Positions 3,545 through 56,642 of a stretch of 64,000 nucleotides of DNA are shown piece after piece. The notes beneath the pieces are model-generated. The model had not been told where the DNA came from. It searched no databases and saw only the letters and a program-made list of their open reading frames with translations. A program made the position numbers and the translations under genes. The stretch comes from Macrolepiota albuminosa (Eukaryota > Basidiomycota > Agaricomycetes > Agaricales > Agaricaceae): the NCBI GenBank assembly GCA_027475525.1, contig JAMWFC010000028.1, positions 227,161 through 291,160 on the forward strand, in the 5' to 3' direction. Within the stretch, counting starts at the first letter, position 1. Each line of letters opens with the position of its first letter.

Positions 3545-4749
3545 ATGGACAACATGCCCGTGGACTTGAGTGAACAGCAGCAGCAGCAGCTACAGCAGCA
3601 GCAGTTTGAGAGTACGCCGTCGGTCTTACCGTCGGCTGAAGGAGGGGGGCAGATGGCTCCCCCGCTGACCCAAAATGCGCCCCAGTAGGGACAATCACAA
3701 CCAGCTGTGGGCTTCCCACAGCAGCAGCAACCACCAGCGGCGGGCTACCTGCCGCAGCAGCCGGTGATCAGTGGCTATCCGCCACTTCAAACCATGCAGG
3801 GCAACTTCATGCCCCAGAACGCACCTGTGGGCGGCTATCAGCCCCAACAACCAGTACCGGGCGCTTATGCGCCACATCACACCGAGGGCCAATCCCAGCA
3901 ACAGGCCTACGGGGGGCTAGTCAGCCCCCAAGCAGCGTCAGCATGGAGGCAGCTTGCCCCCGTACCGGCAACAGGGCAACTGGGGACACATCCTTTTCCC
4001 CAGTTTATGGCCCCAGTGCACTACCCTGGGATGGGTGGTGTGCCCGTAATGATGCCGTACCCCCCGGCAGTTCATCGGCTGATGCGCCGACAGAGAGCTT
4101 GGCCAAGCTCTCCTTGCTACAGCGGCTGGAAATGCCGCACCAATCCGAGCCCAGCTCGGAAGAAGAGTCGCGTCCTCGACGCGACAAAGGAAAAGCACGG
4201 GCTGTCGAGCCCACTCACAGCCAGGACTTAGTCCTGGCTACCCTTCTCCAACGTCTGGGAAATAACAGGTACGATGTACCTGCAGAGTCATCATTCCTCC
4301 GCGATGCGGAGGCAGTTGTCCTCATCTGCCGGATGATGGACGACATGGATCATATGCGCGCTCAGCGCAAAACTGATCTCCTTGCCCTTTCAGCCGCTCG
4401 TAAGTGGCAGACTACACCCCCGAGTCGGGACACCGACTCCAGCAAAAGGGCACGTCGGCAAGGAGTGGAGGACGCGCCCTCCCGCTCGATTAAGTCAAGT
4501 GTTGCTGCCCCCGGCCGGGAGGCCGGCCTAGGACGGGACATCCTTCCCTATGAAGATGTCCCTGCTCTAGCCGCCCCCCGGCTTATCCAGCGCCTCGCAA
4601 GCGGCGTGTCTGAGGTCGCATCTTTGTGACCAGTATCCGTGGTTTCCACCATGTACTCTGGAGAGCAGAGTTCCAGGGGCGTGAGCACACGCCCCACCAA
4701 GGCTAAGGCCTCCATACCCCAAAAGGATCGTCGGGGTAAGCAACCAGAG

Positions 4750-4903
4750 GGGCGCGCCTACGTCAACGTGCACTTCCCTGAGGATGCCCCGAAAGGGGCC
4801 CCAGGGGCTAACATCCCCTTTTTACCGGGCGCGCCTACGTCAACGTGCACTTCCCTGAGGATGCCCCGAAAGGGGCCCCAGGGGCTAACATCCCCTTTTT
4901 ACC
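4750..4903. repeat. Exact 77-bp tandem duplication 1
   Basis: 4750-4826 equals 4827-4903. Single copy in A2 ORF3. Confidence 0.95.
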
Positions 4904-6038
4904 TGCTATACTGGTAGAGGGCCTACCAGCCCGACTCCCACGGTGTGTGTGGGCAATGGACCCACAGTCTGAGAAGTCAGAGCCGGAGAGGCTGCCATCC
5001 CCGCCCTCCGATGACGATTGGTATGAGGAGCCTGAAGAGGCTCGTATGGAATCCCCTGTGCCGCACGAGACGGCGGCACAATGTATGGCACGCAAACGGT
5101 GCAACAGCAATTGACGGGCCAAGATGGAACGTCGGGCGCAGGATAGCGCCAAGTGAGGAGCTGCCCTCCTTGAGGACCAAACCGGGCGCATCCCTGATGC
5201 ACTCGGTGTTGTGATCTATCGAGATCACACTATTGAGCGCCAAAACTCATTCTTTGGTGCGGGGTTAGCTCCCCAATTCTATTGGTCGCCAATGACCAAT
5301 ACCATCTTCGTCGGGCAAGAAGCCCGCGCAGCCAGGTCCTTTGAGGACGATAAACAGGGCAACGCCGTGGTGACGCCCCACAACAGTAAGGTGTACCAAG
5401 TGGCACCTTGCGGGTTTCCCCGCAGTCCTCAAGAAGTCTGAAGACTTCATGCACTGGTTAACAACCAGTTTACGCCACTTTGTCAGCGTCAGTTGGGCTA
5501 CCTTTTGCTCAACGAATTCAAGCGGGTGGCACTCAACTGCCACCCTACGGCCCGAGACAGAGCTATGTCTCATCTACTCGACGAGGTCGAGTATAGGACC
5601 ATCGCGGTACCCTTCACGAGTCCAGAGGAGCGGGAGAACATCCCGCAAATGATTGTGCCGTCGCGGCTCTATCGCCGCAAAGAGGGAGGGAAAATTGCCT
5701 TCGTCGGCGTCGGCCTTACCCCTCCTGATCCAAAGCAACCATTTGCTTTGGACTACCTGGGCTCATACGCCCTCCTCTACGGACGTCCGGGAACGTATGG
5801 ACCGGTCTGGCCATGGACCGAGCCATGCGCATTCATTGGCGCAGCCTCTTTGGGTTTGCGCTTGTACGCGCCCTCAGCGCCAGCCACCCTTCCAAGGCCA
5901 CGGTACACAAGTACCTGGCCTACGTCTTCGCCAGGCCAGGCCTCTACAAAGAGGCCGTGGCTGAGTACGAGGCGGCCACGGGGCAAGTCTTTGAGCCCCT
6001 CCCCGCCGACAACTCTACCTTCGAGGTTTGGGCTGTGG

Positions 6039-6192
6039 ACATCCCGGAAGCGTCAGCTTCCGTGTTCACCACTTCGGACGTGTTACGCGTCCTTCTTCAC
6101 AATCAAATTCTGGTCACATCCCGGAAGCGTCAGCTTCCGTGTTCACCACTTCGGACGTGTTACGCGTCCTTCTTCACAATCAAATTCTGGTC
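6039..6192. repeat. Exact 77-bp tandem duplication 2
   Basis: 6039-6115 equals 6116-6192. Single copy in A2 ORF3. Confidence 0.95.
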
Positions 6193-6783
6193 AGCTGGGC
6201 TGACCACGCGTATATTTATGGGGTCACCTACTTGGCCCATCTATTCTTCAGCGACAGCCGGCTCTACAACGAGGCGGCTGCTATCGACGACGAGAGGCTA
6301 CAACGCCTCGACCACTACGGTACACCCCAGTCCATCCCTCAGTGGGATGGGTGGCGCGAGGCCACCATTGGCGATCGCCAACGCCTGATGCTCCAGCAGC
6401 AGGACAGTTGTCGTGCATACGACGACGCGCTCACCAAGGGGATGTACCTCTTCATCGGGCAAGACATTCATGCCCACGAAATCTGGACGTGCCAGTACCC
6501 GTCTGACACCGGGGATCTGCCTGATCCCCAACCACCTGTCCCGGGGTCGACCATCAACCCCAATCTCACACTGTCCCCCCTCCGGGACTATGACGATTCC
6601 CTGCCAGTAGCAGGGCCTTCAGGCACTTCCTACGCGCCCGCACCTAAGGATGAACTCCTCGACTACGACATGGACGACGCGACTGCCAATCCATTCCGGG
6701 AGCCTGGGGACTCTTCCATTGCCCCCGTCCCTGACTTACCAACAGCATGACCGTCGTATTATCTCAAGACCGTAGCTCGGTCT

Positions 6784-7331: not shown

Positions 7332-7592
7332 TGAAACTTGGGAACTATCCTGCACGCTGTCCTCCGGGCGCCCATAGTGCCCTTTGTCATTGACCTCCAT
7401 CTCTTGCGAGTGGAGGGGCGTCTGATATGGAAGTGGCTCATCATGGCCTGGATAGGCCACCGCTGACTGAAACTGGCTTGCCGCCGGATATGGCAGCTGC
7501 CTCTGAGTTGACATTTGTATATTTGGGGGTCTCCCCCCTCCACTAGAGCCTTGCCGGCTCTGATCACTCTTTTGCGGCCCCCAATAGGCCAT
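7332..7592 (-). pseudogene. B1 ORF3, N-terminal fragment
   Basis: The first roughly 87 codons of the family B extra gene, beginning at ATG 7592 (MAYWGPQKSDQS). It matches the start of the B2 copy at 48601 (MAYWRPQKSDQS). Reading ends where the sequence switches to pol-derived DNA at about 7331. Q/P-rich composition is visible. Function unknown. Confidence 0.8.
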
Positions 7593-18107: not shown

Positions 18108-18112
18108 AAATG
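18108..18112. other. A2 target-site duplication, left (AAATG)
   Basis: Five bases AAATG directly before the left LTR. The same five bases follow the right LTR at 32503-32507. Confidence 0.9.
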
Positions 18113-18346
18113 TGTAACGAAGTTACGAAGTTTATAGAGCTTAGTGTGCACACAACACTGAATCAGACCAGACCGGTCTATTGACAATGTAGTATACAAC
18201 AAAATTAAGCTGCTTTGTAAGCAGCTGGTAAACTATTTATATAGTAATGTAAATTAATATTATATTATAATAAATATAATATAATAGTGTCTACTATACA
18301 GTAAGCAAAGCTATGTGGCCAACGCCACATAGCGGACTACGCTACA
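18113..18346 (-). repeat. A2 3' outer LTR
   Basis: 234 bp, identical base for base to 32269-32502. Hairpins: GTAAC/GTTAC (18114-18126), AGCTGCTT/AAGCAGCT (18208-18226), CTATGTGGC/GCCACATAG (18311-18332). Confidence 0.95.
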
Positions 18347-18391: not shown

Positions 18392-21148
18392 TCATGCCGT
18401 CGGTAAGTCAGGGACGGGGGCAATGGGAGAGTCCCCAGGCTCCCGGAATGGATCGGCAGTCGCGTCGTCCATGTCGTAGTCGAGGAGTTCATCCTCGGGT
18501 GCGGGCGCGTAAGAAGTGCCCGAAGGCCCTGCTACTGGCAGGGAATTGTCATAGTCCCGGAGGGGGGACAGTGTGAGATTGGGGTCGATGGTCGACCCCA
18601 GGACAGGTGGTTGGGGATCAGGCAGATCCCCGGTGTTGGATGGGTACTGGCGCGTCCAGATTTTGCGGGCATGAATGTCTTGCCTGATGAGGAGGTACAT
18701 CCTCTTGGCGAGTGCGTCGTCGTATGCACGACGACTGTCCTGCTGCTGGAGCATCAGGTGTTGGCGATCGCCAATGGTGGCCTCGCGCCACCCATCCCAC
18801 TGAGCAATGGACTGGGGTGTACCGTAATGGTCGAGGCGTTGTAGCCTCTCGTTGTTGATAGCGGCCGCCTCATTGTAGAGCCGGCTGTTGCTGAAGAATA
18901 AATGGGCCAAGTAGGTGACCCCATAAGTATACGCGTGGTCAGCCCAGCTTTGTAGAGCCGGCTGTTGCTGAAGAATAAATGGGCCAAGTAGGTGACCCCA
19001 TAAGTATACGCGTGGTCAGCCCAGCTGACCGGAATTTGATTATGAAAAAGGATGCGTAATGCGTCCGAAGTGGTGAACACGGAAGCTGACGTTTCTGGGA
19101 TGTCCACAGCCCGAGCCTCGAAGTTAGGGTCGTCAGCGTGGAGGGGCACAAAGACTTGCCCCGTGGCCGCCTCGTACTCAGCCACGGCCTCTTTGTAGAG
19201 GCCTGGCCTTGCAAAGACATAGGCCAGGTACTTGTGTACCGTGGACTTGGAGGGGCGGCTGGCGCTGAGGGCGCGTACAAGCGCAAACCCAAAGAGGCTG
19301 CACCAATGAATGCGCATGGCACGGTCCATGGCCAGACCGGTCCATACGTTGGACGTCCCAGGACGTCCATAGAGGAGGGCATATGAGCCCAGGTAGTCCA
19401 AAGCAAATGGTTGCTTTGGATCAGGGGGGGTAAGGCCGACGAAGGCAATTTTCCCTCCCTCTTTGCGGCGATAGAGCTGCGATGGCACAATCATTTGCGG
19501 AACGTTCTCCCGCTCCTCTGGACTCGCGAAGGGTACCGCAATGGTCCTATACTCGACCTCATTGAGTAAATGAGACATAGCTCTGTCTTGGGCCGTAGGG
19601 TGGCAGTTGAGCGCCACCCGCTTGAATTCGTTGAGCAAGAGGTAGCCCAACTGAAGCTGACGAATCGGCGTAAACTGGTTGTTAACCAGTGCATGAAGTC
19701 TGCAGACTTCTTGAGGACTGCGGGGAAACCCGCAAGGTGCCACTTGGTACACCTTACTGTTGTGGGGCGTTGCTGCAGCATTGCCCTCTTTATCGGTCTC
19801 GAAGGACCTGGCTGCACGGGCTTCTTGCCTGACAAAGATGGTATTGGTCACTGGCGACCAATAGAATTGGGGAGCTAACCCCGCGCCAAAGAATGAGTTC
19901 TGGCGCTCAATAGTGTGATCACGATAGATCACAACACCGAGTGCATCAGGAATGCGCCTGGTTTGGTCCTGGAGGAGGGCAGCTCCTCGCTTGACGCTAT
20001 CCTGCGCCCGACGCTCCATCTTGGCTCGTTGATTGCTGTTGTGCCGTTTGCGTGCCATACGTTGTGCCGCCGTCTTGTGCGGCACAGGGGATTCCATACG
20101 AGCCTCTTCAGGCTCCTCATACCAATCGTCGTCGGAGGGCGGGGATGGCAGCCTCTCTGGCTTCGACTTCTCAGACCGTGGGTCCATTGCCCACACACAC
20201 CGCGGGAGTCGGGCTGGCGGGCCCTCTACCAATATGGCGGGTAAAAAGGGGATGTTAGCCCCTGGGGCCCCTTTTGGGGCATCCTTGGAGAAGTGCTCAT
20301 CCGGCAGATGAGGACGACTGCCTCCGCATTGCGGAGGAATTATGACTCTGTGGGTACATCTTACCTGTTATCTCCCAGACGTTGGAGAAGGGTAGCCAGG
20401 ACTAAGTCCTGGTTGTGACTGGGCTCGACAGCCCGTGCTTTTCCTTTGTTGCATCGAGGACGTGACTCTTCTTCCGAGCTGGGCTCGGATTGGTGCGGCA
20501 TTTTCAGCCGCTGTAGCAAGGAGAGCTTGGCCAAGCTCTTTGTCGGCGCATCAGCCGATGAACTGATGCTCCGTCCTGGACTGAGAGTTTCTGTGCTCTC
20601 GATGGCCGTGGTGGCCTGCACGAGAGATGCTTTGCGTCCCTCTAGATTGTCGATTGGTGCTGTGGTTGACAGGGAAATCGACTGGCCTCCCTTGGCTTGC
20701 GACTCATGCAAGTCGCTGTACTGGGGCATTGCGCCCCAAGCCCCCATCCAAGCCAGGGGGTACAGCATCATTATGGGCACACCACCCATCCCAGGGTAGT
20801 GCGCTGGGGCGGTAAACTGGTGCAAAGGATGTGCGCCCATAGCCCCTCTCGCCATAGCGAGGGCAAACTGCCCCCATCCTGGCGCTGCTTGGGGGCTGAC
20901 TAGCCCCCCGTAGGCCTGTTGTTGGGATTGGCCCTTGGTGTGATGTGGCGCATAAGCGCCCGATACTGGTTGTTGAGGCTGATAGCTGCCCACAGGTGCG
21001 TTCTGGGGCATGAAGTTGCCCTGCATGGGTTGAAGTGGCGGATAGCCACTGATCACTGGCTGCTGCGGCAGGTAGCCCGCCGCTGGTGGTTGCTGCTGCT
21101 GTGGGAAGCCCACAGCTGGTTGCGATTGTCCCCACTGGGGCGCATTTT
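18392..21148 (-). pseudogene. Second, 5'-truncated ORF3 inside A2
   Basis: A second ORF3 copy lacking its first roughly 45 codons, where the internal LTR begins at 21149. Relative to the intact copy it has an internal deletion of about 430 bases (junction near 20295), removing much of the low-complexity middle. A 77-bp tandem duplication (18873-19026) appears to break the frame, but removing it makes 20232 to 18392 one open frame of about 590 codons. The conserved blocks (RIPDALGVV, HWCSLFGFAL, YGTPQSIAQWDGW) are kept. It belongs to the A element carrying the outer LTRs. Confidence 0.85.
18873..19026. repeat. Exact 77-bp tandem duplication 4
   Basis: 18873-18949 equals 18950-19026. Single copy in the intact ORF3. 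Confidence 0.95.
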
Positions 21149-21381
21149 TGTAACGAAGTTACGAATTTGAGAGAGCTTAGTGTGCACACAACACTGAATC
21201 AGACCAGACCGGTCTATTGACAATGTAGTTTACAACAAAATAAGCTGCTTTGTAAGCAGCTGAGTAACTAATTATATACGAATGTAAATAAATATTATAT
21301 TATAATAAATATAATATAATATGTACTAATATACAGTAAGTAAAGCTATGTGGCCAACGCCACATAGCGGACTACGCTACA
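21149..21381 (-). repeat. A2 internal LTR
   Basis: 233-bp A-family LTR differing from the two outer LTRs at many positions, mostly in the AT-rich middle. It follows the intact ORF3 and its polypurine tract, and it interrupts the second ORF3 after CGCATTTT. Confidence 0.93.
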
Positions 21382-21426: not shown

Positions 21427-24400
21427 TCATGCCGTCGGTAAGTCTGGGACGGGGGCAATGGGAGAGTCCCCAGGCTCCCGGAATGGATCGGCAGTCGCGT
21501 CGTCCATGTCGTAGTCGAGGAGTTCATCCTCGGGTGCGGGCGCGTAAGAAGTACCCGAAGGCCCTGCCACAGGCAGGGAATCGTCATAGTCCCGGAGGGG
21601 GGACAGTGTGAGATTGGGGTCGATGGTCGACCCCGAGACGGTTGGTTGGGGATCAGGCAGATCCCCGGTGTCGGACGGGTACTGGCGCGTCCAGATTTCG
21701 CGGGCATGAATGTCTTGCCCGATAGAGAGGTACATCCCCTTGGCGAGCGCGTCGTCGTATGCACGACGACTGTCCTGCTGCTGGAGCATCAGGCGTTGAC
21801 GATCGCCGATGGTGCCCTCGCGCCACCCATCCCACTGAGGGATGGACTGGGGTGTACCGTAGTGATCGAGGCGTTGTAGCCTCTCGTCGTCGATAGCAGC
21901 CGCCTCGTTGTAGAGCCGGCTGTCGCTGAAGAATAGGTGGGCCAAGTAGGTGACCCCATAAGTGTACGCGTGGTCAGCCCAGCTGACCGGGATTTGATTG
22001 TGGAGAAGGACGCGTAACGCGTCCGAAGTGGAGAACACGGAAGCTGACGCTTCCGGAATGTCCACAGCCCGAACCTCGAAGGTAGGGTCGTCGGCGTGGA
22101 TGGGCTCAAAGACTCGCCCCGTGGCCGCCTCGTACTCAGCCACGGCCTCTTTATAGAGGCCTGGCCTGGCAAAGACGTAGGCCAGGTACTTGTGTACCGT
22201 GGCCTTAGAGGGGCGGCTGGCGCTGAGGGCACGTACAAGCGCAAACCCAAAGAGGCTGCGCCAATGAATGCGCATGGCTCGGTCCATGGCCAGACCGGTC
22301 CACACATTGGACGTCCCAGGACGTCCATAGAGGAGGGCGTATGAGCCCAGGTAGTCCAAAGCAAATGGCTGCTTTGGATCAGGGGGGGTAAGGCCGACGA
22401 AGGCAATCTTCCCTCCCTCTTTGCGGCGATAGAGCCGCGACGGCACAATCATTCGCGGGAAGCTCTCCCGCTCCTCTGGACTCGCGAAGGGTACCGCGAT
22501 AGTCCTATACTCGACCTCGTTGAGTAAATGAGACATAGCTCTGTCTCGGGCCGTAGGGTGGCAGTTGAGCGCCACCCGCTTGAATTCGTTGAGCAAGAGG
22601 TAGCCCAACTGACGCTGCCGAAGCGGCGTAAACTGGTTGTTGACCAGTGCGTGAAGTCTGCGGACTTCTCGAGGACTGCGGGGAAACCCGCGAGGTGCAA
22701 CTTGGTACACCTTACTGTTGTGGGGCGTCGCGGCGGCGTTGCCCGGTTTGTCGTCCTCGAAGGACCTGGCTGCGCGGGCTTCTTGCCCGACGAAGATGGT
22801 ATTGGTCCTTGGCGACCAATAGAATTGGGGAGCCAACCCCGCGCCAAAGAATGAGTTTTGGCGCTCAATAGTGTGATCACGGTAGATCACCACACCGAGC
22901 GCATCAGGGATGCGCCCGGTTTCGTCCTCAAGGAGGGCGGCCCCTCGTTTGGCGCTGTTCTGCGCCCGACGCTCCATCTTGGCTCGTCGATTGCTGTTGC
23001 GCCGTTCGCGCGCCATACGCTGTGCCGCCGTCTCGTGCGGCACTGGGGATTCCATACGAGCCTCTTCAGGCTCCTCATACCAATCGTCGTCGGAGGGAGG
23101 GGAAGGCAGCCTCTCCGGCTCCGACTTCTCAGATCGTGGGTCCATTGCCCACACACACCGCGGGAGTCGGGCTGGCGGGCCCTCTACCAGTATAGCGGGT
23201 AAAAAGGGGATGTTAGCCCCTGGGGCCCCTTTTGGGGCATCCTCGGGGAAGTGCACGTTGACGTAGGCGCGCACGTCCGGTTGCTTACCCCGACGATCCT
23301 TTCGGGGTTGTGAGGCCTTGGCCTCAGTGGGGCGTGTGCTCACACCCCTGGAACTCTGCTCCCCAGAGTGCGTGGTGGATACCACGGATACTGGTCGCGA
23401 AGACGCGACCTCAGACGCGCCGCTGGCGAGGCGCTGGATAAGCCGGGGGGCGGCTGGAGCAGGAACATCTTCATAAGGGAGGATGTCCCGTCCTAGACCG
23501 GCCTCCCGGCCGGGGGCAGCAACGCTCGACTTAATCGAGCGGGAGGGCGCGTCCTCCACTCCTTGCCGACGCGCCCTTTTGCTGGAGTCGGTGTCCCGAC
23601 TCGGGGGTGTAGTCTGCCGCTTACGAGCGGCCGAAATGGCAAGGAGATCAGTTTTGCGCTGAGCGCGCATATGATCCATGTCGTCCATCATCCGGCAGAT
23701 GAGGACGACTGCCTCCGCATCGCGGAGGAATGACGACTCTGCGGGTACATCGTACCCGTTATCTCCAAGACGTTGGAGAAGGGTAGCCAGGACTAAGTCC
23801 TGGTTGTGACTGGGCTCGACAGCCCGTGCTTTTCCTTTGTTGCATCGAGGACGTGACTCTTCTTCCGAGCTGGGCTTGGATTGGTGCGGCATTTTCAGCC
23901 GCTGTAGCAAGGAGAGCTTGGCCAAGCTCTCCGTCGGCGCATCGGACGATGATCCGACGCTTCGTTCTGTATTGAGAGTTTCTGCTCTCTCAATGGCCGC
24001 GGTGGCCTGCACGAGGGATGCTTGGCGTCCCTCTAGATTATCGGTTGGTACTGTGGTCGACAGGGAAATCGACCGGCCTCCCTTGGCTTGCGACTCATGC
24101 GAGTCGCTGTACTGGGGCATTGCGCCCCAAGCCCCCATCCAAGCCGGGGGGTACGGCATCATTACGGGCACACCACCCATCCCAGGGTAGTGCGCCGGGG
24201 CGGTAAACTGGGGAAAAGGATGTGTCCCCAGTTGCCCTGTTGCCGGTACAGGGGCAAGCTGCCTCCATGCCGGCGCTGCTTGGGGGCTGACTAGCCCCCC
24301 GTAGGCCTGTTGCTGGAATTGGCCCTCGGTGTGATGTGGCGCATAAGCGCCCGGTGCTGGTTGTTGGGGCTGATAGCCGCCCACAGGTGCGTTCTGGGGC

Positions 24401-24666
24401 ATGAAGTTGCCCTGCATGGTTTGAAGTGGCGGATAGCCACTGATCACCGGCTGCTGCGGCGGGTAGCCCGCCGCTGGTTGTTGCTGCTGCTGTGGGAAGC
24501 CCACAGCCTGTTGCGATTGTCCCCACTGGGGCGCATTTTGGGTCAGCGGGGGAGCCATCTGCCCCCCCCCTTCAGCCGACGGTAAGACCGACGGCGTACT
24601 CTCAAATTGCTGCTGCTGTAGCTGCTGCTGCTGCTGGTCACTTATGTCCACGGGCATGCTGTCCAT
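21427..24666 (-). CDS. ORF3 of family A, intact 1079-residue accessory protein
   Basis: Uninterrupted frame from ATG 24666 (ACCATGG context on the coding strand) to the stop at 21427. Residues 1-180 are low complexity: a Gln run near residues 12-20, then P/Q/G/Y-rich repeats (GYPPQQP, GGYQPQQP) like prion-type or condensate-forming segments. Residues about 200-560 are charged and Ser/Pro-rich. From about 580 the chain looks folded: RIPDALGVVIYRDHTIERQ, then MRIHWRSLFGFALVR near 795, LLHNQIPVSWADHAYTYG near 890, HYGTPQSIPQWDGW near 935. The end is acidic. No signal peptide, transmembrane segment or catalytic motif is evident, so env seems unlikely. The C-terminal blocks are conserved in family B, implying a function for the element. 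Confidence 0.85.
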   Translation of the reverse strand: MDSMPVDISDQQQQQLQQQQFESTPSVLPSAEGGGQMAPPLTQNAPQWGQSQQAVGFPQQQQQPAAGYPPQQPVISGYPPLQTMQGNFMPQNAPVGGYQPQQPAPGAYAPHHTEGQFQQQAYGGLVSPQAAPAWRQLAPVPATGQLGTHPFPQFTAPAHYPGMGGVPVMMPYPPAWMGAWGAMPQYSDSHESQAKGGRSISLSTTVPTDNLEGRQASLVQATAAIERAETLNTERSVGSSSDAPTESLAKLSLLQRLKMPHQSKPSSEEESRPRCNKGKARAVEPSHNQDLVLATLLQRLGDNGYDVPAESSFLRDAEAVVLICRMMDDMDHMRAQRKTDLLAISAARKRQTTPPSRDTDSSKRARRQGVEDAPSRSIKSSVAAPGREAGLGRDILPYEDVPAPAAPRLIQRLASGASEVASSRPVSVVSTTHSGEQSSRGVSTRPTEAKASQPRKDRRGKQPDVRAYVNVHFPEDAPKGAPGANIPFLPAILVEGPPARLPRCVWAMDPRSEKSEPERLPSPPSDDDWYEEPEEARMESPVPHETAAQRMARERRNSNRRAKMERRAQNSAKRGAALLEDETGRIPDALGVVIYRDHTIERQNSFFGAGLAPQFYWSPRTNTIFVGQEARAARSFEDDKPGNAAATPHNSKVYQVAPRGFPRSPREVRRLHALVNNQFTPLRQRQLGYLLLNEFKRVALNCHPTARDRAMSHLLNEVEYRTIAVPFASPEERESFPRMIVPSRLYRRKEGGKIAFVGLTPPDPKQPFALDYLGSYALLYGRPGTSNVWTGLAMDRAMRIHWRSLFGFALVRALSASRPSKATVHKYLAYVFARPGLYKEAVAEYEAATGRVFEPIHADDPTFEVRAVDIPEASASVFSTSDALRVLLHNQIPVSWADHAYTYGVTYLAHLFFSDSRLYNEAAAIDDERLQRLDHYGTPQSIPQWDGWREGTIGDRQRLMLQQQDSRRAYDDALAKGMYLSIGQDIHAREIWTRQYPSDTGDLPDPQPTVSGSTIDPNLTLSPLRDYDDSLPVAGPSGTSYAPAPEDELLDYDMDDATADPFREPGDSPIAPVPDLPTA

Positions 24667-24769
24667 GGTTGGGGAAAAAAGGCGAAAAAGAAATTTCGCC
24701 TTTTAAGACGTGTTTCAGCCACAGCTGCTGACCAACTCAGCCAAGCCGCGATCGGCACTGCCGATCAAA
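24667..24769 (-). other. A2 pol-ORF3 spacer
   Basis: Same spacer as in A1: palindromic GATCGGCA/TGCCGATC and a pyrimidine tract before the ORF3 start. Confidence 0.6.
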
Positions 24770-27700
24770 TTAAGCGCCGGCACGCTTACTTAATTGATGT
24801 GGGCGCTTAACGCCCTTCAACTCCAAATAACGGTCAAGTGCCGCTAGCTTGGAGCAATGGGAGTGTGGCTCCCATGTTGTGTCCCCCAGGGACCATCGTA
24901 CCTCAAACTCGAGCGTGTTACGCTCAGTCCACCGGTGCCCAATTATGCACTTGACGAACCATTTGTCATCGTCTCGAGCCCCAAAATCATAGGGGCCCGG
25001 GGTCGCCCTGTTAGGGAACAGTGCATCATCAGACGCGCTATAAGGTCGCAACAGCGACACATGGAACTTAGGAACGATGCGTCGTTCCTGTAATGCCAGA
25101 GGCAGCTCCAACACGTAGTTGGAGGTACTTGGCTCTGCGTCTAGGACGCGGTATGGGCCTACCCATTTCGGGCAGAGTTTACTCGCCCGTCCCTTTGGGA
25201 GCCTCAGATTACGCGTTGATAAGTATACCAACGCTCCTACAGCTATTGGCGGGTCTGTTCGCCTACGGTGATTGGCGTTCTTCGCCTGAAAGACTCGCGC
25301 CTCTATGATGGCGTCATGCGCCGCCACGATGTTCTCCAGGGCCTGCCTGGCGAACTCGACAACTCCACGGTGAGCTACCGTATCAGCACGAAGTTCGTGC
25401 AGCATGGAGGGCAAGTACCCTCCGTTGAGTTCAAAGGGCGCATACCCTGTGGTCTCCGAGATACTCGCGTTAATCGCGAACTCAGTGAGTGGACACCAGT
25501 CCACCCAGTCCCGTTGGTCAGGGCGAACAACTGCCCTCAAAATCTGACCTATACTGCGGTTAACCCGCTCTGTCTGCCCATCCGTCTGAGGATGGAAGGA
25601 CGTCGACATGAGGAGTCGCGCTCCTAGCAGTTTGTGGAGTTCTCTCCACCATTGAGACGTGAACTTTGAGTCACGATCGCTCACAATGGTGCTAGGCAGC
25701 CCATGCAGCCTAACGATCTCCCTCAGGTAGATCCACGACAGCTCCTTAGCCGTCAGCGTAGTTCGCACCGGTATGAGGTGCACCATGCTTGTCATACGAC
25801 ATATGACTACCCAGAGGTAATCGAACCCTCTGGACTCGGGAAAGGGACCTACGAAGTCCATTCCAATTGAGTCCCAGGGTTTCACCGGCACGGGTAGCTG
25901 GTGTAGCTTCCCAAGAGGGGATCCAGGGGGCAACTTTGCCCTCTGGCACGCTGCGCAGGACGCGCAAAACTTAGTCACTTCTTGGGCCATACGTGGCCAC
26001 CAATACCATCGCCGGATGTAGCCCAATGTCCGGGCGGCACCAAAGTGCCCCACCAGGGCATGGGCCTGGTCCAAGACCCGCGTAACAATGGTACGCGTAC
26101 GGGGGAGGCATACCACTGCCACCCCTTGACGGTTCTCCGTCGTGATGAGTCCACCAGGCTCATGCCTGAACCGAGGATGGTCGGCAGGATTGGCGATTAT
26201 CTCGGCGAAGAGAGGATCATCGCCATAGTCCTGCACCACCTCCTGCCGGAAGTCGTCATTGACCAGGCTAGGAGGCTGGGATGAAGGCAATTCGCCTTCG
26301 AGCATCTCCGCAAGCGTAACGGGTACATCGTGGCGCTCGTGCTCCCTAGTGGATGCTGGGTCCACGGTTTCATGCTCCTTGAGCAACTGGGCGGCTACGT
26401 CCCGTTCTTCATGCTGCTCTCTGAGGCGAGTGCTTCGCCTCCGTTCATCGTCACGCATAGCGCGTACTTCCAGGACATGCTCCCTGAGCTCCTGGTATCG
26501 GTGGAGAGGTAAATCCTCTCCATCAGGGTCTATGCGGCAGTCCGCCTGCACATACTCATGAGGCTCGTGAGCCTCCCCGACTACATCACTCTCAAAGTAG
26601 CGTGACAAGCAGTCTGCCACTTTGTTGAGTTCACCTTTAACATAGGTGATGTCGAACTGGTATCTCGACATGTAGTCTATCCACCGTCGCTGACGCGGCG
26701 ACAAGTTCACCTGAGTTTTAAAGAACTCAAGGGCCTTGTGGTCCGTTATGATGTGGATGGGGTATCCCATCAGCTTATCCTCCCACTTGAGGAGAGCCTC
26801 GAGTATGGCAAGAGTCTCCAACTCGTGCACTGCATAGTTTTGCTGGGCCGTCGTAAACTTCTTCGACATGAACCCTGCTGGGCGGCACGTCTGCCAGCTG
26901 CTTCCCTGGCCATACATGGCCCCGACGCCTGTCTTGGACGCGTCGCAAATGAGCCATATTGGCTCGTCCCGTCTAGGGTCGATTGGTCAAATCACCGGAG
27001 TCTTTGTACAGATCCGTTTGACCATCTCGAAGCACCGCTGGTGCAACGGCCTCCAATTGAACGGTGACCCGTTCTGCGTCATGGCCATAAGTGGCCCAGT
27101 ATAGGCTGTGACATCGGGCAAGAAGCTCGATATGTAGTTGACAAGGCCAACGAATCGTTGGATGTCATTGTAGTTTCGGGGCGTGCGCCACTCCCGAATA
27201 CGATCGAGCTTGTCCTGATCAGGGTGGATACCCCGCTCGTCTATGACATGCCCTAGGCAGTCTATACTCTGAGCGTAGAGCTCACATTTTTTCCACTTCA
27301 AGTACAACTTGTACTTGCGCAGTCATTCAAATACGACTCTGAGGTGCTGCTCATGCTCCTCCATAGTATCCGAGTAGATGAATATGTCATCTAAGTAGAC
27401 GTGCATGAAACGTCCTATTACGTCTTGGAAGATAGAGGTCATTAGCCTCTGGAAAGTTGCTGGAGCATTGAGTCTCCAATCTGCATTATATTGCTCGTGA
27501 ATATACCCATGATCGACGCAAATACGGTCTTGGGTACGTCCTTGGTGCGAATGCGCACCTGCTTGTAGGCGTCAGTAAGGTCAATCTTTGAGCGATACTT
27601 TGCCCGAGCCACGTCTTCCCGGATCACCTCTTGATCTGGTAAAGGAGTCACATCCTTTATGGTATTGTCATTGCGCTGACGCGCATCAAGAGCTGTTCAA

Positions 27701-28671: not shown

Positions 28672-28674
28672 TCA
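28672..28674 (-). promoter_or_regulatory. A2 protease/pol UGA, candidate readthrough stop
   Basis: TGA CTT GGC at the position matching TGA CTA GAT in B1 and B2, with pol open in the same frame afterwards. The CUU context is one base away from the strong CUA context. Confidence 0.5.
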
Positions 28675-28984: not shown

Positions 28985-29141
28985 TGCACGGATATTCCGT
29001 ACACATGGGCGAACTGGGGTGTTATGCCCAATGTAGTACTCCCAGAGTCCCATAGGGTCCATGCACGGATATTCCGTACACATGGGCGAACTGGGGTGTT
29101 ATGCCCAATGTAGTACTCCCAGAGTCCCATAGGGTCCATGC
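28985..29141. repeat. Exact 77-bp tandem duplication 5
   Basis: Period 77; matching extends three bases beyond one unit. Splits the A2 protease. Confidence 0.95.
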
Positions 29142-32268: not shown

Positions 32269-32502
32269 TGTAACGAAGTTACGAAGTTTATAGAGCTTAG
32301 TGTGCACACAACACTGAATCAGACCAGACCGGTCTATTGACAATGTAGTATACAACAAAATTAAGCTGCTTTGTAAGCAGCTGGTAAACTATTTATATAG
32401 TAATGTAAATTAATATTATATTATAATAAATATAATATAATAGTGTCTACTATACAGTAAGCAAAGCTATGTGGCCAACGCCACATAGCGGACTACGCTA
32501 CA
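32269..32502 (-). repeat. A2 5' outer LTR
   Basis: 234 bp, identical to 18113-18346. A TATATAAAT motif within it is a plausible promoter. Confidence 0.95.
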
Positions 32503-45114: not shown

Positions 45115-45288
45115 TGTAACTGGAGGTTACAAGCTAGAACTATCTTGTGTGTATCACACAGTGCTAAATCAGACCGCAGTATTGGATTTGACTAGTACTA
45201 GAGTGAAAACAAGATGTTGTTCTTATGTAATACTCTACTGAATGATTATAGCGTTGTTGACGCTAGTTACAAGTGTGACTCCATTAAA
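45115..45288 (-). repeat. B2 3' LTR
   Basis: 174 bp, aligned without gaps to 56469-56642. Its coding-strand start is mutated (TTTAAT for TGTAAC). The polypurine tract TTGGGGGGTA lies just outside (about 45289-45298). Confidence 0.92.
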
Positions 45289-45657
45289 TACCCCCCAATG
45301 AGACCAAATTCTTGGTCTTAGGAAGGGAGTTGGAGCAAAATGAAAGATGCACGGTAGTGCAAGCAACAGACAAATAAAGACGAGTAACATGTGTATCACG
45401 TTGTTGCAAAACGTTAGCATTTGTTTGCAGTGTAAATGTGTCATCTGGACACAATAGAAAGCAGTCCTTATTAGACGGGTGTGCAGGTTGTGCCAGCAGT
45501 AGAGAAGATATGAGTATATATATACAAAAAAAACAAAAAACAAATTAGAGTGACCCCTCCTCTGGGTCCGCTGTATCTACACATGACTCTGGAGTGCGTA
45601 TCAGCTGGAAAATTTTGAGTGAATTATTCGGAGGTACCTACACAACAAAATATGGGT

Positions 45658-48601
45658 CTAGGACCTGTCCGACAATGCTCCCACACCCACGCCTGTCTCA
45701 GTCACCATTGACTCCTCCTCCAGTGCAACGTTAATCATGGGAGGGGGAGGCGCTGATTCTGTCCTTGGTGGGGTGATAGGCCCCTCGACTACAGGTGTGT
45801 CTACCACCATAGACTCAGTTAGTGCGACGTTAATCGCTGAAGCATTGGTGGGTAGCATACCATATGCTGCCATGAGTGTTAGGAGATTGACCCGGTTTGG
45901 GTCCATGTCAGCTGCAGGCATGTCATGCGCTGCCGTGCGTTTTAGGAGGCTGACCTGGTTTGGGTCCATGCCAATGAGATAGTAGAGGCCATTGGCCTCG
46001 GGGTTTTTGGGAAGACAACTTTCCTTGTTGTGCTTGAACATAAGATGATAATGATCGTCTTCGGTCATCTCCTGCCATCCATCCCATTGTGGGATTGCGG
46101 GAGGGGTACCGTATCCGTTCAAGTGCTCCATGCGCTTGTCGTCGATTTGGTGGAAGATGTCCATAGACATCGTGGGGGCGTGGAACTGCTGTTCCAGGAA
46201 GACCACTCCATAGGTATATGTGTGGTCCACCCAGTCGGCAGGTATCCAGTTGTGTAATAAGACGCATAACGTGTTGTCGTCCAAGTTCCATGCAAAGTTG
46301 TCTGGTATGTGCACGGGGTGAAGTTCCAGCTGGGGCCCTCTCTGGGGCTCAAACGGCTGGTCTGGGAACATGGCATTATAGGAGGCAATAGCCTCACGGT
46401 ACAGACCCAGGCGGCCCATGATGAGGGTCATGCGCTGCACAATCACAGGCTTGGCTGCGCTGTTAGTACAAAGAGCTCAGCATAAGGCAAACCCAAAGAG
46501 GGTTCGCCAGTGCATGCGGTAGGCATGATTGACCGCAATGCCCTGATAAGTATTTTCCAAACCAGAACAACCAAAGATCAGCACGTACTGCGCAAGCTGA
46601 TCCAGGTCAAACGGTGTGGCTGGGTCTTGAGCATGCATTATGTGCAGCATGGTTAAGCCGTCTTCTTTCATGCACAGAAAGCGCCCTGGAATATGTCGGC
46701 GCTCAACGAGCGCAAGGTCGTCAGCCTCCTGGATTGAGCTGACGAGGTTCTGGTATTGAGGGTCCTTCATCAGGAGCATCATTGTTTGGTCATGTAGTGA
46801 CTCATCAGTTTGCTGAGCGAACATCTGAAGCTCTGTGATGAGGAGGTAGGTGGTAATTTGTTCATGACAGGGAGCATGGTCATTCGAATAGTATTTGTAG
46901 AGCCAATCCAGCTCTAATGGAGTGCAGGGGAGACCGCGAGGGGAATACTTGTAAATAACGCTGGTGGGAATGCCAGCACGGTGCCCAGAAGAGAACTCAT
47001 ATGCTGCTGCCCAATTGGCCTCGGCTCCCAACAGCACGGTATTCAAATGATACGAATAATAAGTGCAGTGGCTGAGTGCTCCTCTGAAGCACGAGTTTGT
47101 TCGCTCAATATCAAGTGGTCCCTACACCTTCACCCCCAATCCATCGGGGATTCTCCCTGAGAACTCATCCTCAGACCTCTGTTTGAGGGCCTGCAGCTCC
47201 TTGGCGTGAATCACCTTCTTCTTTGCAATGCGCTTATTGCGCAATACTCGCTGGAATTGGTCCGCTGCTGATTCCCCTTCCTCTGCCTCCTACTCATGCT
47301 CCAAGCTCAACTCTCCATAGTCGCTCTTGTTGGATAAGGAGGCCACAGGTGCTTTGCCTTTTCCAGGCATGGGCTGATTCCTTGGGGTTGCCACCAGACT
47401 GTCATATTGCTCTGGGGAGCAAGGGTCAGTGGTCAAGATGACCACGGGAAAGTGTGCCCATGGTGCAGGCATGGTAATGGGCAATAGAAACAACATCGAT
47501 ACTTTCCCAGCCTGTGTGGAAATGCCAGCCAGGAACTCTATCACCTCCAGCTTGGAGGCATCAAGAGGAGGCTTATGGCCTCGACATTGACATGCAGACC
47601 CCAACTTGGCTGGGGTGGGTGATTTGAATGGTGGCTGAGCCATCAGAGGGGCAGGCACATTTTGCGCCAGAGTTCTCCCTCCAGGCTCAGCGCAAGGAAT
47701 GATGGTAACGGGCACTCTTGGTGCCACAGCAACAGTTTTGGGCCCCATAGGTGGAGCCCGAGATGATGTGGTTTCCCGCTGACTCAGGGACAGACCTGCC
47801 AAGGGTTCACTGACTGCAACCAGCAACTCTGAGGAGGCCTGAGAGCCCGGACCGGATAACCGTGATGACGAGGCAACAGGCTGAGCAGGCTGCTCAAGGC
47901 ATGAATTGCACAGCTGATGGCATCCTTGCCCATGGAGGTTTGACCAGTCGACTGGGCTGATATTTAGCCCTCTTGACCTTGGCGGTCGGTTTCTCAAGCG
48001 TGGAAACTTTGCGCTTAGATGTGCATTTGATCTGTTCCAGCACTGTGATGCACTGCCTCTTCATCAGCTCAATCTGGTCGAGCAATCCCTCCATCACCAT
48101 TATGGCCAGACTGTTCTGCAGGAAGGACGCAGTTGCAGGGACTGGCTGTCCCACTGCTTCCAATCTGCCCAACAGTAGGTCTGGCACTGCTAACTTCTGC
48201 ACTTGTGGTGCAGGCTCCACATATGACTCTGCCATGGGCCGATGCACCCATGGTACTGATGGCGGCCCCATCACCACACCCGCATACATCAGATTTGACG
48301 CAGACGAGTGTGACAATGGTTCCTGGTAATAGCGCTCACGGCACGTGCTGTCCTCCAGGCGTCCATAGCGCCCTTTGTCATCAACCTCCATCTCTTGCAA
48401 GTGGAGGGGTGTCTGGTATGGAAGCGGCTCCTCGCAGCCTGGATAGGCCACGCCCGCTGACTGAAACTGGCTTGCCACCGGATATGGCAGCTGCCTCTGG
48501 TATTGAGTAGAATAATCTTGTGTTTGTATATTCAGGGGTCTCCCCCCTCCACTAGAGCCTTGCCAGCTCTGATCACTCTTTTGTGGCCTCCAATAGGCCA
48601 T
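45658..48601 (-). pseudogene. B2 ORF3, env-position accessory gene
   Basis: About 981 codons from ATG 48601 to the stop at 45658, one frameshift between 47997 and 47894, and stops near 47290, 47120 and 46477. The N-terminus is Q/Y/P-rich, followed by a region with a basic stretch (KRKVSTLEKPTAKVKRAK). The C-terminal half matches A ORF3 block by block: RIPDGLGVKV near 47150, IYKYSPRGLPCTPLELDWL near 46940, YRMHWRTLFGFAL near 46500, LLHNWIPADWVDHTYTYG near 46240, GYGTPPAIPQWDGW near 46100. It ends in a T/P/E-rich tail. Conservation of these blocks between the two families supports a real gene of unknown role. Confidence 0.8.
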
Positions 48602-48834
48602 TATAATGTGACACATAAGCTATGTGTATTGAGACTGAGGAAAGAAAGAAAAAAAAAAACACAATCTCCCAACTCCGCTAATGGTGTAAATAACCACAAA
48701 TACATGCCACCCAGCCTCTCACTGGCGATCATAGTCACATAAACAGTCACAATCAATAGCCACAATTAGTAGCCACCCAGTTAGTCACCAGCTATCAAAG
48801 TGGACTTCGTCCACATTCCACCACCATACGCGCA
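48602..48834 (-). other. B2 pol-ORF3 spacer
   Basis: Matches the B1 spacer, including the pyrimidine-rich run before ORF3 (around 48640-48660 on the complementary strand). Confidence 0.5.
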
Positions 48835-49687
48835 TTATGCATGTTTTGCTAGCTGTTGAGGGTGTTTCACACCCTGCAACTCTAGGTACCTGTCCATCGC
48901 TGCAAGGTCTTTGCAGTTCACTAGCGGTTCCCAGGTAGTATCATCTAAGCTCCACCTTACCTCGAATTCGAGGTTTTCCTTCGTCCACCGATGACTTATG
49001 AGGTCATCTATGAACCACTCCTGGTCATTGCCAGTTCCAAAGTCATACGGCTCCAGAGTCACGTGATTAGGGAAGAGCGCATCACTACTGGCCATATACG
49101 GTCGCAATAGCGACACATGGAACTTGGGAACTATCCTGCACACTTGCAGTGCCTGGGGTAGTTCCAGCACGTAGTTAGACGTGCTCGGCTCCGCCTCAAG
49201 GACCTTATATGGTTCAATCCACTTCGGACACAACTTACTCGCCCTGTCTTTCGGCAGGTTCAAGTTCTTTGTTGAAAGGTACACTAGGTCCCCTTTCTCG
49301 ATGTCCGGCTCATCACATCTGCAATTATTCACATGTTTGGCCTGCCATACGTGCGATTCTATAATTGCATCATGGGCATCTGCCAAGTTCCCTAGCGCAT
49401 TGCATGCAAACTGCTTTACTCCCACATGAATAGCTGCGTCAGTAAAAAGTTTACGAATCATGGATGGCATATAGCCATTGTTGAGTTCAAAGGGTGAATA
49501 CCCTGTGGTTTCTGATATGCTCGTGTTTATTGCAAATTCCATGAGTGGACATCTATCCACCCAGTCCTTCTGATCAGGACATATGAACGCTTGCAGTATT
49601 TGCGTGATATTTCTATTTGCACGTTCAGTTTGACCATCCATTTGTGGATGAAACAACGTCGACATGAGCAACTTTGCTTCTAGCAGT

Positions 49688-49841
49688 TTGTGCAGCTCCT
49701 TCCACCATTTGGAAGTGAATTTAGCATCTCGATCGCTTACGATTGAGCTTGGCAATCCATGGAGTTGTGCAGCTCCTTCCACCATTTGGAAGTGAATTTA
49801 GCATCTCGATCGCTTACGATTGAGCTTGGCAATCCATGGAG
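49688..49841. repeat. Exact 77-bp tandem duplication 7
   Basis: 49688-49764 equals 49765-49841. Splits the B2 integrase; single copy in B1. Confidence 0.95.
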
Positions 49842-51212
49842 GTGCACTATCTCCTTGAGATAGATCCACGACAAGTCCGACGCTGTCATGGTGGTTCTCA
49901 CTGGAATGAGATGGACCATACTGGTCATTCTGCAGATCACTATCCAAAGGTAGTTAAAGCCTTTCGACTCAGGAAATGGACCTATAAAGTCCATCCTGAT
50001 CAAATCCCAGGGTTTGACTGGTATAGGTAGCGAATAAAGCTTTCCCGGTGGCTTCAATGTTGATACTTTCGACTATTGACATAGCTCGCATGTCGAGCAG
50101 AACTGGCTCGTCTCTTTGGCCATTTGTGGCCACCAGTACCAGCGTTGCACATAGTCCAGCATTTTCTGAGTTCTGAAGTGGCCCACTATTCTATGGGCCT
50201 GGTCCAGGATAGTCATAATCAACGACCTCTCCCGGAGAATGCAAATGACTTTGGACCCCATGGATCTGGTAAGGTCAACAAGCTGCTGCTCCACCTTGAA
50301 GCGTGGATGTGCCTGGATATTGTTCAGAATCTCTAAGAAGAGATTATCACCCTTGTATCCATGCTGGATACGTGTACAGAATTGTGCATTGCCTAAGTCG
50401 GCTGGTGCAGGAATATGGTTTTGTGACTCCAGCACCTGCTGGAGTGTCATATCTGTACCTCTCGTAGGCACCCCTTGCCTCGTCTCTTCACTTGGCTGAG
50501 GAACCTCATGATCCACCAGCACCTGGGCTTTGATATTGCGAGCTTCTTGCTGTTCATGCAGTTGCTTACTGCGACATGTTTCCTGTGCTCGCATGGCACG
50601 TAGCTTGACTCTATGTTCCTTGATTTCAGAACCTATGCAGGGGCAAATCTTCGCCCTCTGGGTCAATACGTTTGTCCGCCTGGACATAGTCATGCACATC
50701 ATGGACTTCATCTCGAGTATCACTCTCAAAATATCGAGACAGGCAATCTGCAACTTTGTTCAATTCACCTTTTACATAGGTGATGTCAAACTGACACCGT
50801 GACATGTAGTCAATCCAGCAACGTTGTCACGGAGATAGGTGCACCTGAGTCTTGAAAAACTCTAGTGCTTTGTGATCCGTAATGATGTGGATCTTATATC
50901 CCATCAGTTTATCCTCCCATTTTAGGAGGGCTTCCAGGATAGCGAGTGTTCCTAACTGGTGTACAGCATAATTCTGCTGAGCAGCAGTGAATTTACGGGA
51001 CATAAATCCCACTGGTCGGCAAGTCTGCCATGTTTTACCTTGGCCAAACATGGCCCCAACCCCAGTCTTCAATGTGTCACATATGAGCCATATGGGCTTG
51101 TTGATGTGTGGATCAATCGGCCAGATGACTGGCGTCTTTGCACAAATGCGCTTAATCATCTCAAAGCACCGCTGATGCAGCGGTCTCCAGTGAAAAGGGG
51201 ACCCATTCTGGG

Positions 51213-51366
51213 TCATGGCCATAAGTGGCCCTGTATATGCAGTGATGTCTGGCAAAAAGTTGCCAATATAGTTTACAAGTCCAACAAATTCATGGCCATA
51301 AGTGGCCCTGTATATGCAGTGATGTCTGGCAAAAAGTTGCCAATATAGTTTACAAGTCCAACAAAT
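51213..51366. repeat. Exact 77-bp tandem duplication 8
   Basis: 51213-51289 equals 51290-51366. Splits B2 RT/RNase H; single copy in B1. Confidence 0.95.
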
Positions 51367-52897
51367 CGTTGGATATCATTATATGTGCATGGAGTATGCT
51401 ACTCTCGAATTTGGTTGAGCTTATCCGTGTCCAGGTGAATACCCTTCTCATCAATGATGTGACCGAGACAGTCAATACTAGTTGCATACAACTCGCACTT
51501 CTTCCATTTGAGATAGAGGCTGGCCTTACATAGTCGTTCAAATACTACTCATAGGTGCTGCTCATGCTCCTCAATGGAGTCAGAAAAGATGAATATATCG
51601 TCTAAATAGACGTGCATAAACTTCCCAATTACATCTCAGAAGATTGAGGTCATTAACCTCTGAAATGTCGCTGGTGCATTGCAATCACCAATTTGCATGA
51701 TGTTGCTCACGAACGTCCCCATCAGGGATGAAAACAGCGTCTTTGGTATATTCTCTTTGCATATGCAAACTTGTTCATACGTGTCTGTTAGGTCAATTTT
51801 CGACCTATACTTTGCTGTCGCGACATCTTTGGGTATTACTTCCTGATCTGGAAGAGGTGTTACATCCTTGACTGTGTTATCATTTGCACTGTCGCGCATC
51901 CAACGCAGTCCTCAACATTCCATCCTTCTTGGGAATACAAAGTAAGGGTGCAGCTTGCACTGCTGGTTGTGGTTTGCACCACTTTGCATTTATGTATCTA
52001 TTTGTCTTTTCAAGAAGTTGATTCTGTAGTGCTCACGGGCAGCGAGGCAAATGATATTTGTACTGCTTGTTATTGTTGATGAGGTTAATCTCATGATTAA
52101 CCTCCCCATGGAGGAAGCTCTTCCTTCGTTCCGTTGACAATATCAGCAAACTCTTGTTGCCATTGCTGGCGCAATCAAGGAATATCCTCCTCTGTAAAAC
52201 TCACAGCCTTACCTTTCCCTTTTACTACGCATGCTATACGTGGCTGAACCTTTGGTTCAAATTGCTCCCATAAGGCATGTACGTGCTCCTCTGTGAGATC
52301 TCCTAGGTTCAACCTTATGACAGGTTGTTTCTCCAACACTCTTGTCATACTCGACAATGACTGCACGCTTCTCGCTTTCAGCGAGAGTCCATTGAGTACG
52401 ATATCCAATGTTTTGGAAATCTCGTCCTCTCATGCATGACAGTACACTTCTCCTGTCTGGGTCACCTGCACCCTTCCCATAGTCTGCATCACCATTGACG
52501 CCACCAACTTGTTCTACTCCCATGGCATTTGTGGGTTATATGACCATTGCACTCCTGGCCAAGGCACTGGTCAATCCATTAGCAACCTTGTGCTACCCAC
52601 AGTTCCCATTGTACTGTATACCTTGTCCTTGATGAGATCCTCAACCTTCACTCGAGAGCTAGTCAGCTGACATTCCAGCAACTCCACCATGCATTTACCA
52701 TGCTCATTCTTGCACCATACAGCCTGTTTAGGCTTTCTATTGGTACACCCAATCACATTCGGGTGCTTCCCCTTCTTCAGAGTTCCTTGAAACTCTTACT
52801 CAGACATCAGTATAGCTGGCAAATCTGCCGGCAGGCTTTTTGGTGGGACCTGTTTGTCCTCCACCTCCTGTACAGTTGCTCCCTTGCAACCATCTAG

Positions 52898-52900
52898 TCA
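52898..52900 (-). promoter_or_regulatory. B2 protease/pol UGA CUA G candidate readthrough stop
   Basis: TGA CTA GAT, identical to B1 11737-11729, with pol open in the same frame. Confidence 0.7.
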
Positions 52901-55448: not shown

Positions 55449-55463
55449 TGAGACTGCTGACCC

Positions 55464-56357: not shown

Positions 56358-56468
56358 GGAAGCACATTTTTGATGTGATGCCAACAGAAAATTGAGAGGT
56401 TTTGATGAAAGTTGCCTAGTCGGTAACAAGCCTAGAGTCTAAAGCCAATAGCAGAAGATTTAAAAAAA

Positions 56469-56642
56469 TATAACTGGAGGTTATGAGCTGGAACTATCTT
56501 GTGTGTATCACACAGTGCTAAATCAGACCGCAGTATCGGATTTGACTAGTACTAGAGTGAAAACAACATGTTGTTCTTATGTAATACTCTACTGAATGAT
56601 TATAGCGTTGTTGACGCTAGTTACAAGTGTGACTCCGTTACA
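56469..56642 (-). repeat. B2 5' LTR
   Basis: 174 bp. Its 3' side (coding strand) begins the primer-binding region of seven T and AAATC, as in B1. The plus-strand start reads TATAAC instead of TGTAAC. Confidence 0.92.

Follow-up and report, generated by a model that had tools for sequence, protein, structure and literature searches.

An additional gene behind pol in chromovirus-like Ty3/Gypsy elements of mushrooms evolves under purifying selection and may encode a nuclear accessory protein

A stretch of 64,000 nt from Macrolepiota albuminosa (contig JAMWFC010000028.1, positions 227,161 to 291,160; hereafter the window) is made up of stacked transposons, among which two Ty3/Gypsy families, A with long terminal repeats (LTRs) of 234 bp and B with LTRs of about 170 bp, carry a long third open reading frame, ORF3, behind pol. 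This arrangement raises the question of whether ORF3 is a gene of these elements and what its product might do. The analysis led to the conclusion that ORF3 is very probably an accessory gene maintained by selection. That it represents the genuine third gene of a chromovirus-like Ty3/Gypsy lineage in Lyophyllaceae-type mushrooms and encodes a nuclear accessory protein is, as a whole, an evenly balanced proposition; taken separately, we rather favor a nuclear location of the protein on the basis of its motifs, while a role as nucleic-acid-binding regulator or ribonucleoprotein (RNP) factor falls slightly short of even. The original prediction, made from the letters of this DNA, had described ORF3 as an accessory module, a reading supported by its place in a mobile unit, by purifying selection and by the lack of a match to any known family.

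In A2, the element with the only open ORF3 among the four long copies, the frame comes after the RNase H-integrase region of pol on the same strand and in a different frame, with the pol stop at 24770-24772, and in both A2 and B2 it is situated between pol and the 3′ LTR. The predicted 1079-codon frame was thus recovered, and comparison of the window with itself returned the related copies in A1, within the A2 insertion and in B2 at the predicted places, as well as the B1 fragment formerly delimited at 7332-7592 (Table 1). All four elements of families A and B in the window therefore contain ORF3, B1 as a fragment. As ORF3 lies inside insertions with target duplications in both families, it belongs to the mobile unit. 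The same self-comparison located four A LTRs, that of A1 on the plus strand and three on the minus strand, and three B LTRs (about 15396-15567, 45117-45286 and 56471-56640). The A2 insertion proved to be a composite unit of 14.4 kb, running from 32502 to 18113 with one CATTT target duplication, in which ORF3 is followed by a purine-rich end, an internal LTR, a second partial ORF3 and the outer LTR, so that two of the copies listed separately in the original prediction belong to one element. Because the outer LTRs are identical and the target duplication is single, the composite has apparently been mobilized as a single unit. LTRs, CATTT and ATCAT duplications and the order of protease, reverse transcriptase (RT), RNase H (RH) and integrase (IN) along A2 identify the elements as Ty3/Gypsy. 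Pfam matches included an aspartyl protease, RVT_1 (E 1e-10 in A2, 7e-23 in B1), RNase H and integrase; SH3_Tf2-1 scored above its curated cut-off in A1, A2, B1 and B2, and Chromo in the same four elements reached E 0.0009-0.0054 with 17.1-19.5 bits, under the curated cut-off of 25.1. In contrast to dUTPase-carrying fungal Gypsy elements, ORF3 and those pieces of gag and pol that were scanned with Pfam gave no dUTPase match.

The main evidence for selection on ORF3 is its substitution pattern in three copies of family A. Since CpG transitions account for 55 of the 106 differences between A1 and A2 in pol and for 80 of the 184 in ORF3 (CpG<->TpG/CpA changes being 55/96 and 80/147 of the respective transitions), a matched null was used in which each observed change was placed randomly on sites with the same base and CpG/TpG context in 5000 simulations. 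The 170 changes between ORF3 of A2 and A1 comprised 94 synonymous, 72 nonsynonymous and 4 stop changes, with 54.8 and 109.6 expected for the first two classes, corresponding to a matched dN/dS of 0.38 and to 0/5000 simulations as extreme. Comparison of A2 with the internal copy gave 85 synonymous and 88 nonsynonymous changes out of 175 (0.48), and non-CpG changes alone yielded 0.29 for A2-A1 (55/36 vs expected 26.9/61.2) and 0.39 for A2 against the internal copy. The RH-IN part of pol, serving as control, showed 49/28 changes vs expected 24.4/51.0 and a matched dN/dS of 0.27; Nei-Gojobori values concurred (0.23 and 0.31; pol 0.16), and the signal was absent from the two wrong frames of the A2-A1 comparison (1.44 and 1.81). 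Changes private to A2 were 42 synonymous and 24 nonsynonymous with no stops, vs expected 20.0 and 43.8 (matched dN/dS 0.26), and fell on the three codon positions as 11/13/42, while in the broken copies private changes included two stops per copy and gave 0.60 and 0.67, a pattern that fits a gene selected while the element is active and drifting once a copy is dead. Constraint is modular, as residues 1-280 evolve near neutrality (0.84 for A2-A1, 1.26 for A2 against the copy), and residues 280-575 (0.26 and 0.30) and 575-1000 (0.41 and 0.39) are constrained. A dN/dS near 1, named in the original prediction as speaking against its reading, was not seen, but the comparison covers three copies instead of many intact elements.

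The open state of ORF3 next to a broken gag and pol had likewise been taken as a hint of selection. Gag and pol of A2 are indeed not open, with 8 stops (7 TGA, 1 TAG) between the pieces and additional frame changes, but the Poisson chance of an intact ORF3 is 0.03 if 8 lesions are counted over about 7.2 kb and 0.07 if 6 are counted, so that the hint is weak alone and the actual evidence lies in the pattern of substitutions. Not all eight stops need be lesions: the TGA at 28672-28674, at the junction of the protease piece and pol, has TGA counterparts in B1 and B2 (11735-11737 and 52898-52900) and may mark a natural boundary, a readthrough site or a CpG hot spot. B1 and B2 also share a TGA behind the gag N-terminal block. 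The A2 stops at 27697, 27323 and 26987 and one frame change fall in RT/RNase H, B1 and B2 carrying a sense codon at the position of stop 27697; given these stops and the frame change within RT, A2 was probably mobilized in trans. The RT patches of A1 and A2 have the frame change and stops in common, which could suggest that the lineage is dead but its ORF3 selected; this idea was rejected, as the common lesions can be accounted for by gene conversion or local recombination within a patch (26990-27696 vs A1 542-1248) that differs at only 6/707 sites, compared with 79/2188 in RH-IN. A recent event of this kind is likely. Short duplications were also observed inside gag and protease of A2 (28930-29141 and 29975-30143).

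ORF3 proteins of A and B are colinear over residues 446-985, with 180/561 identical positions (32%, E 5e-72), and all five C-terminal motifs proposed originally, from RIPDxLG through YGTPxxIPQWDGW, were found in A2 and B2; a further common block on the N-terminal side (A2 residues 296-379, E 2e-6) had been overlooked. Identity between the families, determined by tblastn for each piece, is 75-89% for RT, 53-82% for RNase H-integrase, 59% for the capsid region, 38-48% for nucleocapsid (NC)-protease and 31-33% for the gag N-terminal pieces, and as ORF3 stands at 32%, it has diverged at a gag-like pace. Outside the window, a first protein search retrieved 0 relatives among 7988 candidates, residues 575-1000 alone then found two Termitomyces proteins (35-36% identity), and a profile built from A, B and these two proteins returned at least 27 clusters reaching E <= 0.001 out of 7997 scored, the count including the two query members P0001 and P0002. 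The clusters comprise 24 from Termitomyces (P0001-P0021, P0023-P0025), one from Arthromyces matolae (P0022), an ENA fragment of 120 aa that is 90% identical to A2 (P0026) and a JGI protein of 176 aa (P0027); all 25 organism-named clusters belong to Lyophyllaceae, in agreement with the predicted lineage of basidiomycete Gypsy elements. A Pfam domain is listed for 0/27 clusters, and no known family above the curated cut-off was recovered for ORF3 itself in Pfam, NCBIfam, PHROGs or PDB sequences. In a tree of 27 rows and 262 columns (25 proteins, A2 and one B2 piece; P0026, which is too short, and P0011 were left out, and one short misaligned B2 piece was omitted from the alignments), B2 grouped among Termitomyces, A2 stood apart close to the Arthromyces and JGI proteins, and P0001 formed another long branch, with support ranging from 0.07 to 0.996 and reaching 0.28 at the A2/JGI node. 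Several ORF3 lineages thus seem to co-exist, like A and B in the window.

The protein itself is clearly partitioned. Residues 1-200 contain 19% Q and 16% P, and the low-complexity part is followed by the block common to both families, within which a bipartite nuclear localization signal (NLS)-like motif was recognized using the general bipartite consensus. In A2, B2 and P0001 the pattern begins 18-19 residues into an anchored 60-mer, with differing spacers, and shuffled 60-mers match at any position with a chance of 0.18, 0.21 and 0.016, respectively. Several observations limit the weight of this motif: 25% of A2 shuffles contain such a match, the P0001 gene model starts at the anchor so that its register is alignment-based, the sole match in P0002 lies 15 residues upstream, and P0003, a partial model, has no match. 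Ahead of the IPD motif, an acidic patch precedes a basic stretch, with net charges of -8/+9, -8/+8 and -9/+9 in A2, P0001 and P0003 for windows chosen after inspection. The C-terminal domain contains one cysteine in A2 and near-invariant HW, LLHNxIPxxWxDHAYTYG, YGTPxxIxxWDGW and GxYxxIGxD motifs; in the 27-row alignment, W802, L814, N890, I892, H899, Y901, G904, L908, P939, I942, W945, G947, W948, G977, Y979, G983 and D985 are invariant (20-27 rows with a letter). Helices dominate the AlphaFold model of P0004, computed from 32 rows, whose mean pLDDT is 59, with values of 80-93 across much of residues 181-270, and at this moderate confidence no library structure was matched at E <= 0.001, HIV capsid rows appearing only at Foldseek E > 1. 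A short GxxVPxxxS-type likeness between the gag N-terminal region (31241-31480) and the helical block of ORF3 (23620-23800) may be due to chance; it could also mean a partner-binding module common to gag and ORF3.

Further clues concern expression. Pyrimidine tracts (24/27 in A2, 25/27 in B2) touch the ORF3 ATG of A2 and lie 30 nt upstream of that of B2 at 48601, and both rank first as the most pyrimidine-rich 27-mer of their element's sense strand; the fraction of positions with an equally rich tract <=60 nt upstream is 0.0043 and 0.0061, at a threshold fixed after the tracts had been seen. B1 has a counterpart of the B2 ATG at 48601 and none of that at 48616; the pol-ORF3 intervals of A and B are otherwise poorly alignable. 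No AG splice acceptor directly precedes the ORF3 ATG in A, and strict splice signals were limited to one AGGTAAGA donor at 32031 without a pyrimidine-rich acceptor in A2, and to acceptor-like sites at 48652-48653, before ORF3, and at 56333 without such a donor in B2. Fungal transcription starts are known to feature an element composed of a CT box plus CAAG. For the xylP promoter, replacement of a pyrimidine tract near the transcription start is reported to leave 22% activity (PMC9703631), and the DAO1 start region of a basidiomycete yeast is likewise described with such a tract (PMC4624585). The arrangement suggests that the tract serves as ORF3's own transcription start or, in B, as a splice acceptor, either of which would provide for separate expression.

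Taken together, these features can be assembled into a working model. ORF3 would travel within the LTRs and be maintained by selection throughout the element's life; its product would consist of a disordered N-terminus, a helical, possibly oligomerizing block with the bipartite NLS, an acidic patch with a basic stretch as candidate RNA- or DNA-binding region, and a helical domain of 400 residues for a specific partner. With expression separate from that of gag-pol, through either a pyrimidine-box start of its own or a spliced mRNA, it may act in the element's nuclear phase, in transcription, in RNA export as for CERV, in anti-silencing as for VANC, or in import or targeting of the integration complex. 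A bolder version, in which ORF3 is a new family with its own fold and an internal-promoter transcription unit, and a nuclear regulator evolved independently in mushroom chromoviruses, appears rather doubtful. That regulator would be a fungal counterpart to the genes that foamy viruses express from internal promoters, to Rev/Tat-like factors or to VANC.

Among known systems, additional ORFs of fungal Gypsy elements were drawn as early as 2010 in a survey whose Figure 3 legend gives their function as unknown (PMC2864245); by description alone, they resemble ORF3 as extra frames in full-length elements, so that the family itself may be called previously unnamed, as originally claimed, but the occurrence of such frames may not. 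No description of the ORF3 gene was found in titles and abstract beginnings of the open-licence literature. In plants, elements with additional genes in the interval from pol to the 3′ LTR are described as well known (PMC7264820); among them, Grande gene23 and the additional ORFs (aORFs) of Retand share with ORF3 the site in the element and conservation across copies, and have an unknown or, as proposed for ORF3, nuclear role, gene23 being reported to have its own promoter and a nuclear protein (PMC7264820, PMC11963269). These frames are antisense to gag-pol, whereas ORF3 is sense, and the transposase 28 domain was absent from Pfam scans of ORF3, gene23-type proteins otherwise being compared by description. 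The env-like aORFs of plant Athila and Bagy2 (PMC7264820) are sense and past pol as well, but ORF3 is without transmembrane or signal-like segments. As a model for its function, CERV of the Cer1 element in Caenorhabditis elegans, a nuclear LTR-element protein reported to export genomic RNA (PMC10309623), is likened by description only, Cer1 being an animal element. The same holds for VANC of Arabidopsis VANDAL, a transposon-encoded protein described as counteracting silencing (PMC10398659, PMC5735166).

The rival that fares best, itself not likely, is a specialized form of nuclear function, in which ORF3 would encode a VANC-like DNA-binding protein that keeps its own copies free of CpG methylation. 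VANDAL elements are plant transposons and not LTR elements. The observed/expected CpG ratio of 0.08 (36.2-45 kb) and 0.27 (57-64 kb) vs 0.93 in ORF3 of A2 would agree with this proposal, and more than half of the A1/A2 transitions are CpG<->TpG/CpA changes, which points to a silencing that the element probably has to fight; the NLS-like motif and the basic stretch would be in keeping as well, but no DNA-binding domain was recognized in ORF3, and youth alone can explain the high CpG of young elements. Marginally less probable, yet the main alternative, is a structural protein of the virion or RNP, either a second gag-like or a capsid-associated one. The predicted helical C-terminal domain and a divergence between A and B that resembles gag N-terminal pieces and not RT would suit such a role, as would a weak 18-column likeness of the gag N-terminal block to the helical block of ORF3 (hhalign P 0.012; 0/300 column shuffles as good); however, the hhalign probability for this pair, chosen by eye, is 3.6%, BLASTP of ORF3 against the gag pieces gave none under E 0.15 among the matches listed, and no capsid fold was matched. 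Captures of host genes by LTR elements are documented (PMC7264820), but hitch-hiking of such a gene through recent transduction is improbable here, as ORF3 occurs in two families of the window and in several long-branched lineages, its relatives lack Pfam domains and their 25 named clusters are confined to Termitomyces and Arthromyces, constraint is comparable to that of pol, and a profile match to a known host gene family only, by which the original prediction might have failed, did not appear in Pfam, NCBIfam, PHROGs or PDB sequences. An env-like gene diverged past recognition, for which the splice-acceptor-like tract in B2 could speak, is highly improbable given the fungal cell wall, the single cysteine in residues 575-1000 and a hydropathy scan in which, as originally noted, no signal peptide-like or transmembrane segment emerged (highest 19-residue Kyte-Doolittle mean 0.82). 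Equally far-fetched is a functionless chance survivor, since despite one open copy out of four and a composite element that could be recent, codon positions, simulations and conservation across genera refute it for residues 280-1000, although residues 1-280 do drift.

Beyond families A and B, the window contains further remnants. Tyrosine-recombinase-like frames at 32461-36045, beside the A2 5′ LTR, which we take to be DIRS/Ngaro-like, include a Phage_integrase match under the cut-off (E 0.0036, 35221-36042). At 39444-41682 (+) lies a remnant of another pol, its RT piece 51% and its integrase piece 28% identical to A2, and at 44335-44760 an RT fragment (RVT_1, E 1.4e-13), presumably LINE-like by appearance. 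B1 carries a duplication of its pol end (7032-7331 and 7806-8105, 90%) adjoining the A1 insertion point, and very strong CpG decay marks old repeats at 36200-45100 and 57000-64000.

Table 1 Positions of ORF3 copies, their parts and the surrounding element features in the window.
Feature	Position	Strand	Remarks
ORF3 of A2, open	21427..24666	minus	1079 aa / 1079 codons; ATG at 24666
ORF3 A2 residues 1-280	23827..24666	minus	Q/P-rich, low-complexity
ORF3 A2 residues 280-380	23527..23829	minus	block common to A and B (296-379)
Bipartite NLS-like motif, residues 348-367	23566..23625	minus	corresponding matches in B2 and P0001
Acidic patch then basic stretch, residues ~520-575	22942..23109	minus	P0001 and P0003 likewise; B2 has the basic stretch
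Conserved C-terminal helical domain (predicted), residues 575-1000	21667..22944	minus	
Pyrimidine tract of A2 (24/27)	24667..24693	minus	touches ORF3 ATG; context CAACCATGG
Pol 3′ part of A2	24770..26986	minus	Pfam RT_RNaseH, Integrase_H2C2, rve, SH3_Tf2-1, weak chromodomain
5′ LTR of A2	32269..32502	minus	identical to 18113-18346 over 234 nt; flank CATTT 32503-32507
3′ LTR of A2	18113..18346	minus	flank CATTT 18108-18112
Internal LTR after ORF3 of A2	21149..21381	minus	93% identical
Second ORF3 inside A2 insertion, broken	18392..21148	minus	starts at ~codon 43; ~residues 326-472 deleted
ORF3 of A1, broken	3545..6750	plus	A1 3′ LTR at 6796-7031
B2, LTR to LTR	45115..56642	minus	ends TG...CA; ATCAT on both flanks, judged by eye
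ORF3 of B2, broken	45658..48601	minus	stops and frame changes
Pyrimidine tract of B2 (25/27)	48631..48657	minus	30 nt upstream of ORF3 ATG (48601)
ORF3 5′ fragment of B1	7356..7592	minus	ATG at 7592

Fungal LTR retrotransposons are usually portrayed as gag-pol machines, and the elements described here carry an extra long gene that is selected about as strongly as pol; the element must thus require more than gag-pol in its host. ORF3-bearing elements are also the likely origin of a set of Termitomyces "hypothetical proteins". Being sense, not env, apparently nuclear and perhaps separately expressed, ORF3 could reveal how retroelements control expression, RNA export, integration or silencing in mushrooms with heavy CpG loss from their repeats.

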